A stretch of DNA of 42,799 nucleotides. It comes from Candidatus Accumulibacter phosphatis. Its GTDB lineage: Bacteria; Pseudomonadota; Gammaproteobacteria; Burkholderiales; Rhodocyclaceae. Shown in pieces: positions 24,633 through 39,003 of the stretch (positions are counted from its first letter, which is position 1; each line of letters starts with the position of its first letter). The notes under the pieces are model-generated. The model did no database searches and had not been told where the DNA came from. It worked only from the letters and a program-made list of their open reading frames with translations. Made by a program: the position numbers and the translations under genes. The stretch covers positions 1 through 42,799 of the forward strand of contig NZ_SPMY01000026.1 in NCBI RefSeq assembly GCF_012939955.1, given 5' to 3'.

Positions 24633-26126
24633 TCAGGCAAAGCCGGTGCGGGCGGCTGCCGGAATTGGCAGGCGTGACGGCTGCAAGCGCCGCAACGGGA
24701 AAACGATCCTGGCAATACAGCCGCACACCGCTTCACCACTCGCGCCGCTGGTCTTTGGACGCAGGCTGGCCGCAGCCTGATGGATCTCGGCAATCTCGCG
24801 AACAATAGCCAGGCCCAGGCCGCTTCCTTCGCCATCACTGCCGTCGGCCCGGTAAAAGCGGTCGAAAACCTTGAGCGAATCGTCGTCGGAAATACCGCTG
24901 CCACTGTCTTCGATTTCGAGGAGGGCGAAATCGCCCTGCGCAAACACGCGCGCCGTGACGCGTCCGTCGGCGGGCGTATAGCGCAGGGCATTGTCGAGCA
25001 GATTGTTGATCATCTCGCGCAAGAGAAAAGCGTTACCGACGATGGGCACGGCACCGGCCGGCTCGTAGCCAAGGTCAATGTGCTTTTCAAGCGCTTGCAC
25101 GACCCAGGTCTCGACGATTTCGCGCAGCAGTGGCTCAAGGTCGAGCGCTAGCAGCGTCTGCTGCGAGTGACCACTCGCTTCGGCGCGCTCCAGCGCCAGC
25201 AACTGGTCGACCAGGCGCGAGGCGCGATCAACGCCAGCGAGAATCTGGCTCAAGGCGTGCCGCAGTTCGCCCGGATCACGCTCGCGCATGGCCAGCTGCG
25301 CTTGCGTCTTCAAGCCGGTGAGCGGCGTGCGCATCTGGTGCGCGGCGTTGGCAATGAAACGGCGCTGTGCGTCGACGTTGTTCTGCATCCGCGCCAGTAT
25401 CGAATTGAAGGCCTCGGTCAGCGGCCGCAGCTCCTCGGGGACGCGGCTCAGCGAAATCGGCGAGAGATCCGCTTCGCGACGCGCTTCGATGCGCTTGCGC
25501 AGTCGGGTCAGCGGGCGCAAGCCTTGCGACAGCCCGAACCAGACCAGCACCACCGCCAGGGGGATGATCACGAACTGTGGCAAGATCACGCTGGCAATGA
25601 TCTTGTTCGCCAACTGCGAGCGCTTTTCAGTCGTTTCTCCGACTTCGATCAAGACCCGGGGCGTCGTCGACTGGGCGCTGGCGAAGAGAACCATGTAGGC
25701 GACGCGCAGCGTCTGGCCGCGGTACTCGTCATCGCGAAAATGAACCTCGCCGGGCTCTTTGTTCTCCAGGCTGATGGGCAAGACCGGCACGGGCAGTTCG
25801 GGGTCGCCGACGACCAGTTCGCCGTCACCATCGAGCAAATGGAAATAGACGTTGTCGATCTCGTCGGAACGCAGAAAAAGCTGCGCCAGAGCCGGCACCG
25901 CCAGTTGCGGATGCCCGTCGTCGAAAGTGATCTGGCGCGATATCGCCGTTACATGCTCGCGCAGTGACTGATCGTAAGGGAAGCTGGCAACACTATTGGC
26001 AAAGTAGTGGGTGAATGCGATGCTGATCGGCCACACGAACAGTAAGGGTGCCAGCATCCAGTCCAGGATCTCGCCGAAGAGCGAGCGCTGGACGTCAGGG
26101 TCTCGTTTCTTCCGCAGGTTTCTCAA
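24633..26126 (-). CDS. Sensor histidine kinase, TctE/QseC type
   Basis: About 497 residues. In order: N-terminal helix (MLAPLLFVWPISIAFTHYF), a 2CSK_N-like periplasmic sensor, a second helix (IIASVILPQFVIIPLAVVLVW), a HAMP-like linker, the H-box FIANAAHQMRTPLTGLKTQA with the phospho-accepting His, N-box MINNLLDNALRYTPADG, and G1/G2 boxes (DSGSGISDDD, GEGSGLGLAIV). All kinase motifs are intact. The start is uncertain: a TTG at 26126, inside the regulator's 3' end, gives a sensible N-terminus, and an ATG at 26165 is the alternative. The last 35 residues are atypical and may come from a junction. The stimulus is unknown; copper is plausible from context. Confidence 0.85.
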   Translation of the reverse strand: MRNLRKKRDPDVQRSLFGEILDWMLAPLLFVWPISIAFTHYFANSVASFPYDQSLREHVTAISRQITFDDGHPQLAVPALAQLFLRSDEIDNVYFHLLDGDGELVVGDPELPVPVLPISLENKEPGEVHFRDDEYRGQTLRVAYMVLFASAQSTTPRVLIEVGETTEKRSQLANKIIASVILPQFVIIPLAVVLVWFGLSQGLRPLTRLRKRIEARREADLSPISLSRVPEELRPLTEAFNSILARMQNNVDAQRRFIANAAHQMRTPLTGLKTQAQLAMRERDPGELRHALSQILAGVDRASRLVDQLLALERAEASGHSQQTLLALDLEPLLREIVETWVVQALEKHIDLGYEPAGAVPIVGNAFLLREMINNLLDNALRYTPADGRVTARVFAQGDFALLEIEDSGSGISDDDSLKVFDRFYRADGSDGEGSGLGLAIVREIAEIHQAAASLRPKTSGASGEAVCGCIARIVFPLRRLQPSRLPIPAAARTGFA

Positions 26127-26774
26127 GATAGTATCCGAGGCCGCGCACGGTCGTGATATTGACACCAGTCGCTTCGAGTTTCTTGCGCAAGCGATGGATA
26201 TAGACCTCGATGGCGTTATGGCTCACTTCCTCGCCCCAGCCACAGAGGTGATCGACCAGTTGGTCCTTGCTGACCAGCCGCCTGGCGCGCGAGAGGAGAA
26301 TCTCCAGCAAGCCGAGCTCACGAGCCGAAAGGTCGAGCATCTCGCCATTGACCATCGCACAACGGTCGGTCTGGTCAAAAGTAAGCAAACCGCAATGGAT
26401 AAGCCGGGCCGTGCCTGACGAGCGGCGACTCAGCGCGCGCACACGCGCTTCGAGTTCAGGCAGCTCGAAAGGCTTGGCCATGTAATCGTCGGCACCCAGA
26501 TCAAGCCCTTTGACGCGGTCGTCGATACCGTCGAGCGCAGTCAGGATCAATACCGGAGTGCTCGATTTGCGAGCGCGCAACCGGCGCAGCACGTTCAGGC
26601 CGGGCACCTTGGCAGACCCAGGTCGAGAATTACCAGATCGTAGACGTTGGTCATCAAAGCGGTATCGGCGTCGATTCCTGTGTACGCGCAGTCGACGGCG
26701 TAGCCTCCCTTGCGCAGCGAGCGGCAAAGGCCATCGGCAATGATTCTGTCGTCTTCAGCAAGAAGAATGCGCAT
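26095..26774 (-). pseudogene. OmpR-family response regulator, frameshifted by one base
   Basis: From the ATG at 26774 the receiver reads MRILLAEDDRIIADGLCRSL to VILDLGLP (phospho-Asp). The frame is then lost at 26609-26612, where one A seems to be missing on the coding strand. The next frame continues KVPGLNVLRRLRARK, through the Lys in DYMAKPFE, and the winged-helix DNA-binding domain ending VRGLGYYLEKP. Every motif is present, so this may be an assembly error. The 3' end overlaps the kinase gene. It is the cognate regulator and possibly controls the cus operon. Confidence 0.85.
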
Positions 26775-33183: not shown

Positions 33184-33463
33184 ATGAAGGACTATTACGC
33201 AGTACTTGGCGTGGCCAGTGATACGTCTCTCGAAGGCGTAAAGCAGGCCTATCGCAAAAAAAACCCTGCAGCTCCACCCTGACCGCAATACCGCGGCCGA
33301 CGCCGCTGACCGATTCCGCGACGTTCAGGAAGCGTACGAAACGCTTTCCGACGAGGGCAAGCGGCACGACTATGACGAGAACCGGCGTCGCAATCTTCTC
33401 GAAAAACCGCTTGAGACTGCGCGCGAGATCTGGAAGAACTACCTGGAAGGAATATTGCAGTGA
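33184..33463 (+). pseudogene. J-domain protein, frameshifted in an A8 run
   Basis: A 92-residue J-domain protein if one A is dropped from the run at 33256-33263. It then reads MKDYYAVLGVASDTSLEGVK, AYRKKTLQLHPDRN (the invariant HPD), FRDVQEAYETLSDEGKRHDY, and ends AREIWKNYLEGILQ. There is no Gly/Phe region or zinc finger, so it is a class III J protein that stimulates a DnaK-type chaperone on special clients. Its stop overlaps the next start (GTGA at 33460-33463). As given, the frame stops after 31 codons. The extra A is probably a sequencing error. Confidence 0.82.
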
Positions 33464-34011
33464 GGCTGTCGCAATTTTTTTGAAGAACTCAGCTCGGCCT
33501 ACGACGCTGAGCTCGACGACCTGCTGACCGATTCGGCTGGGCACGATGTCCTCGCCCAGCGGCTGCTCCTGAAGCGCAGTCAGCTTCCCGAACTGCTGCC
33601 GATGATCGAATTCAGCCCGGAAATGGTCGCCGTCACGTTCCACGGGGGAATGGACTTTTCCAGCCCCGAAGTCATGCGCGATCTGGCGTCTCAGGACCCG
33701 GAAGACCTACCTTCCTGGGAGATACTGCTGGAGAGCGTGCATCTGCAGCCGTGGGCCAGCGAGCTGGCGAAAACGGTCCTCGAAGATCCGAACGGCGAAC
33801 GCTTCCTGGTCGTCACCGCGTGCCTGGAATACCTGCACGGCCGGAATAAGCCTTCGTCAGAGTCAGGCGATCGACGGCAGCGCAACGATTTCGACGACGA
33901 CCGCTCCGACCCCGACGTCGACGGCGACGACATCGATCTCGAGGAAGCGGGCGCGACTGGCTTGCCGAACAGGGTTTTGACCGCAAAGATCGCCATTCGG
34001 GAGACAACTGA
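33460..34011 (+). pseudogene. Conserved-looking unknown gene coupled to the J-domain gene, two indels
   Basis: Best read from a GTG at 33460 as MRLSQFFEELSSAYDAELDD, which needs T6 instead of T7 at 33475-33481. It continues IEFSPEMVAVTFHGGMDFSS, then an Asp-rich stretch (DDDRSDPDVDGDDIDLEEAG), and returns to the original frame near 33946, ending DWLAEQGFDRKD to a TGA overlapping the next ATG (34009-34013). About 183 residues, acidic. I do not recognise a family. The tight overlaps on both sides and opposite-sense indels support a single real gene with sequence errors. Confidence 0.55.
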
Positions 34012-34742
34012 TGAGTCACCCAGTACTCGTACGCGCCGAGAAGTTGATCCGCGTCGGCGACATCGTCGGGGCCGAAGCGGCGCTGGCCTCCCTGGTCGAT
34101 AGCGACGGCGACGGCGCCCTGGTCGTCGCGCTCGATGATTTCGCCGCCAAGGACCTCTTGGCAGTCCTCCGCGACTTCGATTCCTCGAAGGAATCGGTGG
34201 TCAGCCTGCTGGTCCTGCCGGAGCAATTCGCGCGCGCCATCGTCCTTGAGCGTCGCTATGGCGATGCCACTCACGAACGCCTGCAGGCGATCATCAACTC
34301 GGTCATTTTCCGGGCTGACAGCGACCCCGGCGAGTTCATCGAGGCAATCGCGGCGGTAGACGGCGGCTGCGACGCGCTGGCGGACTATCTCTGTGATCGT
34401 GCCGAAATCGTCGAGCACTTCTTCAAAACCGGCACTTTCGGCTTCTTCGACGACGTCGATGAAGCGGCTGCCGAGTTGAACGACGACGAACGTCTCGACG
34501 AATTGTCGGATCCCGAGGCCAATCGCCCCTTCCTCAGCCATAGCGAAGTCAGCGATCAGGACTGGATGGAGCTGACCTGGCTCCTGCGCTACGAACATGC
34601 CGAGATTTTTCGCGATGTCCTGCTGATCTTGCGGGCGCGCGCACGAGCCGAAGAACCGCAACTTGCAAGCGACGAGACGCCAACTCGTGCCAATGAGCAG
34701 CGCCGCCCCCCGGGTGAGCCCGAGGAAGAATCAGCCTTGTAG
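34011..34742 (+). CDS. Unknown acidic protein of the J-domain cluster
   Basis: 243 residues, strongly acidic (many Asp and Glu), no signal peptide and no membrane segment. Segments that look conserved: KLIRVGDIVGAEAALASLVD, LLVLPEQFARAIVLERRYGD, and NRPFLSHSEVSDQDWMELTW. The motif FLSHS (174-178) recurs in the next protein (97-101). The ATG overlaps the previous stop by one base. No family assigned. Context suggests it works with the J protein and the neighbouring unknown genes. Confidence 0.75.
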   Translation: MSHPVLVRAEKLIRVGDIVGAEAALASLVDSDGDGALVVALDDFAAKDLLAVLRDFDSSKESVVSLLVLPEQFARAIVLERRYGDATHERLQAIINSVIFRADSDPGEFIEAIAAVDGGCDALADYLCDRAEIVEHFFKTGTFGFFDDVDEAAAELNDDERLDELSDPEANRPFLSHSEVSDQDWMELTWLLRYEHAEIFRDVLLILRARARAEEPQLASDETPTRANEQRRPPGEPEEESAL

Positions 34743-34794
34743 ATCGGTAGATCTCTCGATGCACCCAATGCTAGCCGCAGACAGCTGACCGCCC

Positions 34795-35994
34795 ATGCCC
34801 AACGACCACCACCAGCTCGCCGTTTTCGACGAGCGGCCCTTTTTCGAACGTGCGCTCGCTTTCGGCGTCCGCGCCGGCATCCTGGCCGACGCGAAAATTG
34901 CCGCTATTGTCGACGACGGGCCGAAGGGCATGGTGCAGATCGCCGAGTATTTCGGCACCCAGTACCTGCGCCCGAACATCGACGAAGCACGCGAACGAAT
35001 CGTCAATCTGGTCAGTTTGTTCCTTGAGGAACAAAGTGGTGGCGACCTTGAAAAAGCAGCACACTCCTTGCGTGACGGTACTTTTCTGTCGCATTCGCGG
35101 GGCGGCTCGGAAATGCTGAAAAGCCTCTGGGCAATGCCCGAGGATGCCTCGTTCGGAATCATGATCAAGCAGTCCCAGAAGCTGTTTCTCGCCGACTGGT
35201 CGCTGCGCAGTAGCGCCGACTATCGCCAGGCGCGCGCAGAACGGCAAGACCACCAGCAGACGATCGACACGGCGCTGTGGTTTGCCGAAAGCCTCGGCGT
35301 CCCTGCGGAAGAGATTTCGACCGTGGCCAGCGAGTCGATCATCCGCACCGCCGTCCTCCTGCATCTCGCCGGCAGCACGGCAGCTTCACTTCCCAACGCC
35401 GCCGAATTCGTTGGCATATTGGCGAAACTCCGCGAAAAAGGCGTCCCCGCCAAAGGCAGAAAAAGCCTCGCGGCGGTTTTCAAGGCGCTGCCGGAAGCCT
35501 ATCAGGCAGCCGCTCGCAGGGAACTGCACAAGGTCGAAAGCGACGATCTGCCGCGGATTCTCGACGCCTCGCAGGCGATGAACAAGCTGATTCCCGAGCT
35601 TGAGCCCTTGTATTTCCTGCGCGACTTCGGTCTCGAGGAAGCCAGCCAGTTCAGCGCAGGCGTGTCACAGGACTGGCAGAAGATCACCGCTGGCAAGGTA
35701 GACGATAATTCGCTGCTGACGATTTTCCTCTGTCTGGCGGTCGATATGGCGCCCAGGGCGGCACTGAGCAAGGCCGCCGCACGTACGCTGATCGGCAAGA
35801 TCCGGAAAGAGGGCCTGCAACGCCAACCGGCACTGGCCTTCATCCGCGCTTTTGCCCCTTACGCCATGCAGGATGACCTCGAGGCTCTCTGGAATGAAGT
35901 CTTTCCCGAGTTGGAGAACGCCCTGGTCGACCCCGCCGATACTTCCGGCAGCCAGGCGCTCACCTACCTCAAGGAAAACTGCATCATCCGTTAG
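34795..35994 (+). CDS. Unknown 399-residue helical protein of the J-domain cluster
   Basis: A soluble, mostly alpha-helical protein with no recognised domain, no signal peptide and no nucleotide-binding motif. The N-terminal third looks most conserved: FFERALAFGVRAGILADAKI, GMVQIAEYFGTQYLRPNIDE, and GTFLSHSRGGSEMLKSLW, sharing FLSHS with the preceding protein. It lies 52 bp after that gene, same strand, last of the four-gene set. The ATG at 34795 is the first in frame. I do not assign a function. Confidence 0.75.
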   Translation: MPNDHHQLAVFDERPFFERALAFGVRAGILADAKIAAIVDDGPKGMVQIAEYFGTQYLRPNIDEARERIVNLVSLFLEEQSGGDLEKAAHSLRDGTFLSHSRGGSEMLKSLWAMPEDASFGIMIKQSQKLFLADWSLRSSADYRQARAERQDHQQTIDTALWFAESLGVPAEEISTVASESIIRTAVLLHLAGSTAASLPNAAEFVGILAKLREKGVPAKGRKSLAAVFKALPEAYQAAARRELHKVESDDLPRILDASQAMNKLIPELEPLYFLRDFGLEEASQFSAGVSQDWQKITAGKVDDNSLLTIFLCLAVDMAPRAALSKAAARTLIGKIRKEGLQRQPALAFIRAFAPYAMQDDLEALWNEVFPELENALVDPADTSGSQALTYLKENCIIR

Positions 35995-38058: not shown

Positions 38059-39003
38059 TCAATCGCAGCATCCCTTCTCTACGGCTGGAAAAGTTACCGT
38101 CACCCGCAGGCCTGAACACGATTGCTGGTTAGCAAAGCCAAAAGCCAGCGTGGCGCCCACACGAACGGCAATAGCCCGAACAATCGACAGACCGAGCCCC
38201 GAACCAATCTCGTTGCTGCCCAGGACGCGATAGAACGGATCAAACACCCGCTCTCGCTCTGCGTCCGGAATGCCGGGACCGCTATCTTCGATTACCAGCG
38301 TCGTCGCGACGGCGGTAGCCAGCACCGACAAGTCGACGCGCCCACCGGCCGGCGTGTAACGAATCGCGTTCCCCACCACAGAGTCTCGGGGGCAATCGGG
38401 TGCAACTCGTCTTCGTGGCGCTGATCGATTTCATGGGCGAGCGCGGCAAGCGGGCGAAATATCTTGCGAACGATAGCGGCGACGACAAATAGCAGGATCG
38501 GAACCAGGATCAGGAAGGGCGTCAGCGTGAGTAGCGCGCCGCCGCGAGAAATTTCGTCGCGGACAGCCGTGTCCTGCGCTATGGCTAGGCGATCCCCACT
38601 GTCGAGAGCCCTGACCAGAACGCGATAGCGTTCATGACCAATACTCACCGTCTGCAGACCGTCGACCAGATCTGTTGGCAACGCCAAGGGCAGATCGGCA
38701 GACACACCGCTGGCGATCGAGGAACTGCCGGCGAGGAGTTGCACGAAAACGCGATTCTCCCGATCACGAACCTCCTCGTTACCGAGTTCTCCCACAGGCG
38801 GAGTAGCCAGGGCCAGGTGTTGCCGGACAATGACCGCCGCAAGCTGACGCAGCACGTCGTCCTGCAACTCCTCAGCCTCATGGTGCGCCAGAAAAAAAAG
38901 CGAAGATACCGGCGATCAGGGCCACACCGAGAATCGCCAGTGACAGCCCGACGGACAACTTGCTTTGCAGCGACTCTCTCAGACGCTTTTCGAGACCATC
39001 CAT
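38059..39003 (-). pseudogene. Sensor histidine kinase (QseC-like), central part deleted
   Basis: The N-terminus is a QseC-type kinase: MDGLEKRLRESLQSKLSVGL, a periplasmic loop, a second helix (LLTLTPFLILVPILLFVVAA), and the HAMP end IDQRHEDELHPIAPE. It then jumps, near 38375-38385, straight to the N-box VVGNAIRYTPAGG and on to G1/G2 (DSGPGIPDAE, GSGLGLSIV). The H-box with the phosphorylated His and the dimerisation helices, about 130 residues, are missing, and the frame also shifts there. A further extra A in the A8 run at 38892-38899 breaks helix 1. It is non-functional even if the run is an error. Confidence 0.85.

Follow-up and report, generated by a model that had tools for sequence, protein, structure and literature searches.

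A divergent J-domain gene cluster of Candidatus Accumulibacter and its probable identity as a betaproteobacterial form of the atcJABC operon

Our analysis indicates that four genes at positions 33184-35994 of a 42,799-nucleotide stretch of Candidatus Accumulibacter phosphatis DNA (hereafter the window; contig 28 of a 149-contig, 5.04-Mb assembly) are very probably the atcJABC operon in its Accumulibacter, betaproteobacterial form, with a mechanism that would be carried over from Shewanella. Sequence comparison shows that all four genes are homologous to their atc counterparts and stand in the same order, and that the J protein has a J domain with the HPD signature and a PX7W tail. Since all curated cut-offs were missed, the cluster is not filed under the NCBIfam Atc equivalogs; it is a divergent branch of the wider atcJABC family and extends known biology. 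A sequence-only reading had proposed the cluster as an undescribed system, a description that lapses given the report of atcJABC in Shewanella oneidensis in 2019 (in the available text of PMC6715715).

Results

Gene layout and products

The four co-directional genes comprise a J-domain gene, g2, g3 (243 aa), and g4 (399 aa), with a four-base overlap between the J gene and g2, a one-base overlap between g2 and g3, and a 52-bp gap between g3 and g4 (Table 1). This coupling stands as the sequence-only reading gave it, while its gene structure holds in part: g3 and g4 are open in the window, whereas the J gene and g2 are frame-shifted. Spacing is similar in relatives, where the J-g2 overlap is four bases in 25 of the 28 tabulated loci (the spacing table omits locus L016 of genome G027, which is included in the synteny count below).

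J proteins are 91-93 residues long in the 25 loci measured and end soon after the J domain, which Pfam DnaJ recognized in the intact orthologues scanned (3.4e-22 in locus L022). No Pfam match above cut-off was found for g2, g3, or g4 in the proteins scanned, in line with the earlier statement that no domain is recognizable beyond the J domain, and the description of two acidic genes was borne out by pI values of 4.32 (g2 of L022) and 4.29 (window g3). A PDB sequence search returned no matches for the g3 profile and five weak matches for the g4 profile (best E 0.48), all to unrelated proteins. AlphaFold2 models from 6-row alignments were all-helical for both g3 (mean pLDDT 61.1) and g4 (53.1), with a quality too low for library comparison. 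The neighbouring genes scanned were ahcY, a holin-like gene, metF, TfoX_N, and EamA.

Table 1 Features of the atcJABC-like cluster, in window positions.
Feature	Position	Strand	Remarks
atcJ-like gene	33184..33463	+	Class C J-domain protein, 92 codons long in most relatives; frame-shifted once here, near 33256; two-frame match in window
HPD signature of J domain	33275..33283	+	Read in frame of 3' part
P-x7-W (P-LETAREI-W), C-terminal extension of AtcJ-like protein	33407..33433	+	Predicted AtcC docking peptide; read in the window's 3' frame
atcA-like gene	33460..34011	+	~180 codons in relatives; acidic tail; two frame shifts here near 33473 and 33953
DWLxEQGFDR motif near AtcA C-terminus, after variable acidic linker	33955..33984	+	Alignment of 28 g2 proteins plus tails of 14 further; close variants in some
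atcB-like gene (g3)	34011..34742	+	243 aa, pI 4.3, intact; extended profile match to AtcB
ESAL, extreme C-terminus of AtcB-like protein, after variable linker	34728..34739	+	C-terminal end in 28/28 homologues
atcC-like gene (g4)	34795..35994	+	399 aa, intact; profile match to AtcC
N-terminal part of AtcC-like protein common to gamma AtcC	34813..35076	+	hhalign columns 7-94; to column 199 with extended profile

Conservation and distribution

Of the 61 genomes in a neighbourhood search, 30 carry g4. Besides the window's own genome, these are 26 of 27 other Accumulibacter genomes and three of the 33 that belong to the same family or order. The genes J, g2, and g3 adjoin g4 in the same order in all 30. 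The cluster is thus present in 27 of the 28 Accumulibacter genomes examined, and the sole genus genome without g4 is G016 (90% complete), where an assembly gap is possible because g3 is also missing. Among the nearest named relatives, g4 identity is 95% to Candidatus Accumulibacter meliphilus, 91% to appositus, 89% to adiacens, and 85% to regalis. Identity to A. meliphilus is uneven along the operon, at 99.6% for the window g3 protein versus 94.7% for g4 and 93.0% for g2 (over 157 residues), a pattern that could reflect recombination or stronger constraint.

Across the wider order, the g3 profile matched 22 of 399 genomes (own genome included), which represent 13 of the 159 genera. Nineteen of these loci were extended; of the remaining three, two were already in the set and one was the window. 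Relatives of J and B were found in all 19 extended loci, so that homologues lacking the J gene, which the sequence-only reading had held to speak against a module, were seen neither here nor beside g4. C was matched in 18 of 19, the exception being L117, whose contig ends inside B. A was matched by profile in 14 of 19, and the other five have an acidic-tailed open reading frame (ORF), 169-184 codons long, in the A slot. The distribution of the operon is patchy, since the window's own genome was the sole match to g3 in a class-wide sample of 369 genomes; in the same sample, no AtcC exceeded its cut-off. After this sample, an order-wide search was used, centred on a genome picked by RpoB similarity.

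Gene-by-gene homology with atcJABC

True atc loci were drawn from another order, in which 40 of 345 genomes carried AtcC over the NCBIfam cut-off; nine of these gamma loci were taken, together with four lower-scoring loci below that cut-off, which form a third clade. In profile-profile comparisons, Accumulibacter-centred profiles matched the gamma clade at 99% for J, 91% for A, and 93% for C but at 9% for B, and matched the third clade at 99.6% for J, 9% for A, 27% for B, and 3% for C. The comparison was then extended with 14 further beta loci, giving 39-42 beta proteins per gene against 12-13 from the gamma and third clades joined. All four diagonal pairs scored highly in this extended set (J-J 99.8%, A-A 96.7%, B-B 91.6%, C-C 96.6%), while the 12 off-diagonal pairs were all below 1%, the largest being 0.86%. 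The C-C match spans columns 10-199, and the C-terminal half of g4 is without a match in AtcC.

Individual proteins of intermediate sequence were recognized from both sides in searches of 800 ORFs. The Accumulibacter-centred and gamma profiles, respectively, detected g3 of L127 at 1.6e-72 and 1.3e-6 (AtcB), g2 of L122 at 3e-60 and 2.5e-9 (AtcA), and g4 of L133 at 4.1e-11 and 5.4e-9 (AtcC). When the window and L022 (448 ORFs together) were searched, g2 and g4 came first with the gamma AtcA and AtcC profiles, respectively (2.5e-4 and 8.8e-4, the AtcA value being that of L022 g2), and the gamma AtcB profile placed g3 at E 2.9, behind the g2 ORF at 1.7, with neither significant. The beta AtcB profile, run against 219 genomes of the phylum, gave five matches and may have missed gamma atcB genes; two of the five fall outside the order (2e-4 and 5e-4; G456 and G432), and both lie at the atcB position, directly upstream of atcC. 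B is the weakest link of the four homologies, and the bridging protein of L127 and the matches in G456 and G432 support it.

All four NCBIfam Atc equivalog cut-offs were missed, and the sub-threshold matches were scattered among the proteins scanned. AtcJ reached 45.1 of 150 bits (L022). AtcA reached 20.8 of 200 bits in L027, with no match in L022 or L029, and AtcB 11.3 of 440 bits (E 0.17) in L029, with none in the window or L027. AtcC reached 16.8 of 370 bits in the window and 18.3 in L027, with none in L029. When the AtcC model was run over the whole 5.04-Mb genome at E up to 10, g4 was the sole match (E 0.005), far below cut-off.

The AtcJ tail and other short motifs

Weber et al. 2023 reportedly found P-x7-W in the tail of short J-domain proteins encoded in an operon with atcA, atcB, and atcC homologues, with beta- and gammaproteobacteria named; the P-x7-W tail of the J protein described here is presumably this AtcJ motif. 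All 37 J proteins of the first set, which included 12 from the gamma or third clades, carry PX7W. The motif is also found in 10 of the 14 beta J proteins added later and in one of the five in the weakest group, four of which lack the P. The count includes L118, a locus at a contig end whose J tail reads P-LEVAREI-W. With PX7W present in the tails, Accumulibacter has likely retained the J-AtcC link, which may be changed where W is absent. The latter proteins (L125, L127, L129, and L130) keep P and replace W by S, F, A, and A, respectively, and offer natural variants on which the AtcJ-AtcC contact could be tested.

Loci L131-L135 represent a very divergent Atc-like branch within the same taxonomic order. 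Their J proteins carry A (four) or P (one) before x7-W, the A slot holds an acidic-tailed ORF, and B ends in DIFS or DIFA. The C ORF is 413 aa long in L132-L134 and 286 aa in L135.

The five-residue string FLSHS, which the sequence-only reading had noticed in two of the proteins, does occur at g3 174-178 and g4 97-101, but a role as a shared functional motif was not upheld. A shared 5-mer arose in 16.8% of 20,000 shuffles (p ~0.17), compatible with chance. In g3, FLSHS is kept in 10 of 28 homologues and in none of 13 further beta or 13 gamma or third-clade proteins; in g4, the corresponding counts are 25 of 28, 1 of 12, and 0 of 13. Despite its frequency in g4 within the genus, we therefore rejected it, given chance-level sharing and the lack of conservation in g3.

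Frame shifts in the window

In the window, the reading frame of the J domain moves to the next one at about 33256, and g2 changes frame twice. Against L022, L024, and L025, in which the atcJ and atcA orthologues are open, these amount to three single-base frame shifts within 0.7 kb, one within a run of A and another abutting a run of T. Further differences (five bases at the g4 stop and two bases at the edge of the EamA gene) have little effect. The genes metF, g3, and g4 each stay in one frame against G001 and G022, as does ahcY against G001. Other J-domain matches in the genome are at most 48% identical, indicating no second AtcJ.

A frame survey of the window found more than one frame in 3 of 28 genes against G001 and in 7 of 20 against G022, counts that are upper bounds because several are antisense or start-extension artefacts of ORF choice; only atcJ, atcA, and the following two places are relied on here. 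At 26098-26774 (-), the window follows a ~226-aa gene of G001 but switches frame near 26.6 kb, and the G022 ORF there changes frame too. At 38062-39003 (-), a 458-aa G022 gene matches in three pieces; the window lacks ~143 of its residues near 38380 and switches frame near 38895. By eye, the C-terminal part of this gene is like a histidine kinase ATPase region.

Discussion

Weighing the alternatives

The reading of the cluster as atcJABC has evidence against it: the NCBIfam cut-offs were all missed, the narrow profiles gave weak B-B matches to both clades and weak A-A and C-C matches to the third clade, the gamma AtcB profile did not reach g3 with significance, the C-terminal half of g4 is unmatched in AtcC, W is missing in four of the 14 further beta J proteins and P in most of the weakest group, and G016 lacks g3 and g4. 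The missed cut-offs would also suit an unrelated J-domain cluster whose resemblance to atcJABC comes through the J domain alone, a domain that would match any J protein. Such a cluster is very improbable, and we rejected it, since each of A, B, and C has its only match in the corresponding atc gene, following the order of the operon, while off-diagonal controls stay below 1%, and the beta AtcB profile reaches gamma atcB in searches of whole genomes. The sequence-only reading had tentatively suggested a dedicated DnaK/HscA co-chaperone module. Its DnaK part is supported by synteny over divergent clades and by the relation of all four genes to AtcJ/A/B/C, whereas an HscA partner is not indicated: although the cluster has a J domain and a weak HscB profile score (E 0.0015), an HscB/HscA iron-sulphur module is scarcely credible with HscB scores of 19.1 of 198 and 18.5 of 46.75 bits (far below cut-offs), DnaJ as the only Pfam domain above cut-off, and no isc genes among the scanned neighbours. 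It was rejected on the HscB scores and the neighbours.

Two further alternatives accept the atcJABC family. One holds that the beta branch has a role other than cold growth, with the AtcC C-terminus and the AtcA and AtcB tails rebuilt for another target and the DnaK-recruiting scaffold kept. We consider this possible but doubtful. It would fit a g4 protein ~100 residues longer than AtcC that matches in its N-terminal part only, an AtcB tail of ESAL rather than the DDMFSFL type of gamma, the loss of the W of PX7W in some beta lineages, and the suggestion in a meeting text that Atc proteins likely give DnaK new functions (available part of PMC10939069); however, the genes stay together, the J-AtcC docking motif is mostly retained, and the scanned neighbours point to no other target. 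The other holds that the operon is decaying in the window genome, with atcJ and atcA as pseudogenes. Three single-base shifts in 0.7 kb, while metF, g3, g4, and ahcY hold frame, and the lack of a second AtcJ would favour decay, but one of the shifts lies in a run of A and another beside a run of T, sites prone to sequencing error, frame changes elsewhere in the window (~26.6 kb; 38.4-38.9 kb) point to assembly quality, and g3 is 99.6% identical to L022 g3, so that decay seems rather unlikely. The shifts represent either sequence errors or the loss of the DnaK link in this strain; since other places in the window also change frame against relatives, loss of function is no more likely than error.

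Proposed mechanism

Identification of the cluster as an atcJABC operon allows a mechanism to be drawn by analogy with S. oneidensis, in which AtcJ is a functional J protein whose last 21 residues bind AtcC (Kd 7 nM for full-length AtcJ-AtcC) and AtcC binds AtcB (available text of PMC6715715). At 7 °C, S. oneidensis grows very poorly without AtcJ, AtcB, or AtcC, while AtcA loss is tolerated (same text of PMC6715715), and a meeting report places AtcB in contact with RNA polymerase (available text of PMC7871303). In Accumulibacter, the J domain of AtcJ would, by the same scheme, stimulate and recruit DnaK, and the AtcJ tail would dock tightly on AtcC (g4), the predicted site being the conserved N-terminal part of AtcC. 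AtcC would in turn bind AtcB (g3), which may carry the assembly to its target, RNA polymerase if the meeting report on Shewanella is followed. DnaK might thereby be delivered to a specific target required for low-temperature growth, with AtcA as a putative accessory protein, dispensable for cold growth in Shewanella. A cold-growth role in Accumulibacter is inferred from homology, the phenotype being known from Shewanella.

Accumulibacter are polyphosphate accumulators of wastewater plants, and these results link an operon found in nearly all of the genomes examined to a DnaK co-chaperone network that has already been studied, predicting a role for the operon in low-temperature growth. The divergent sequence set also shows which parts are kept (the AtcJ tail, the AtcC N-terminus, and the AtcB C-terminal peptide), which can guide the choice of residues for tests in Shewanella. 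No paper on AtcJ in Accumulibacter turned up in a literature search of open papers (Weber et al. 2023 being outside this scope), so the Accumulibacter operon may be absent by name from open papers. By its title, Weber et al. 2023 (doi 10.1111/1462-2920.16478) concerns conservation of atcJABC in environmental proteobacteria (cited in the available part of PMC10939069).

Comparison with known systems

HscB, the class C J protein of the isc operon, offers a parallel as a J protein dedicated to a client or partner whose gene lies next to its own (available text of PMC6715715), but HscB models fall far below cut-off here and no isc gene lies among the neighbours scanned. The closer likeness is to the S. 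oneidensis operon of AtcJ (SO_1850), AtcA (SO_1849), AtcB (SO_1848), and AtcC (SO_1846) (available text of PMC6715715), with which the cluster shares gene order and tight spacing. The J protein is 92 aa long here and 94 aa in S. oneidensis, each with a short tail past the J domain; AtcA is ~20 kDa with an acidic tail in both; AtcB is 27 kDa here and 29 kDa in S. oneidensis; and the N-terminal part of AtcC is common to both.

The differences concentrate in AtcC and in the protein ends. The AtcC-like protein is 44 kDa here versus 34 kDa in S. oneidensis, with the match confined to its N-terminal part, and it has 399 aa, of which only the N-terminal 90 to 190 align, versus 296-300 aa in gamma loci. 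AtcB ends in ESAL here, and 11 of the 13 additional beta proteins end in ESAL or ESAI, whereas the ending is DDMFSFL-like in nine gamma proteins and DDMFAPL in four third-clade proteins. In the AtcA-like protein, a variable acidic linker leads to DWLxEQGFDR or a variant of it close to the end, and the Accumulibacter proteins fall below every NCBIfam Atc cut-off. From their sequences, the conserved ends after variable linkers in AtcA and AtcB look like binding peptides. We speculate, without much confidence, that the beta Atc branch is a rebuilt module, in which AtcC would keep its AtcJ-docking N-terminus on a different body, the acidic-hydrophobic C-terminal peptide of AtcB would dock the final target (RNA polymerase or another), and the scaffold would have been re-aimed between lineages.
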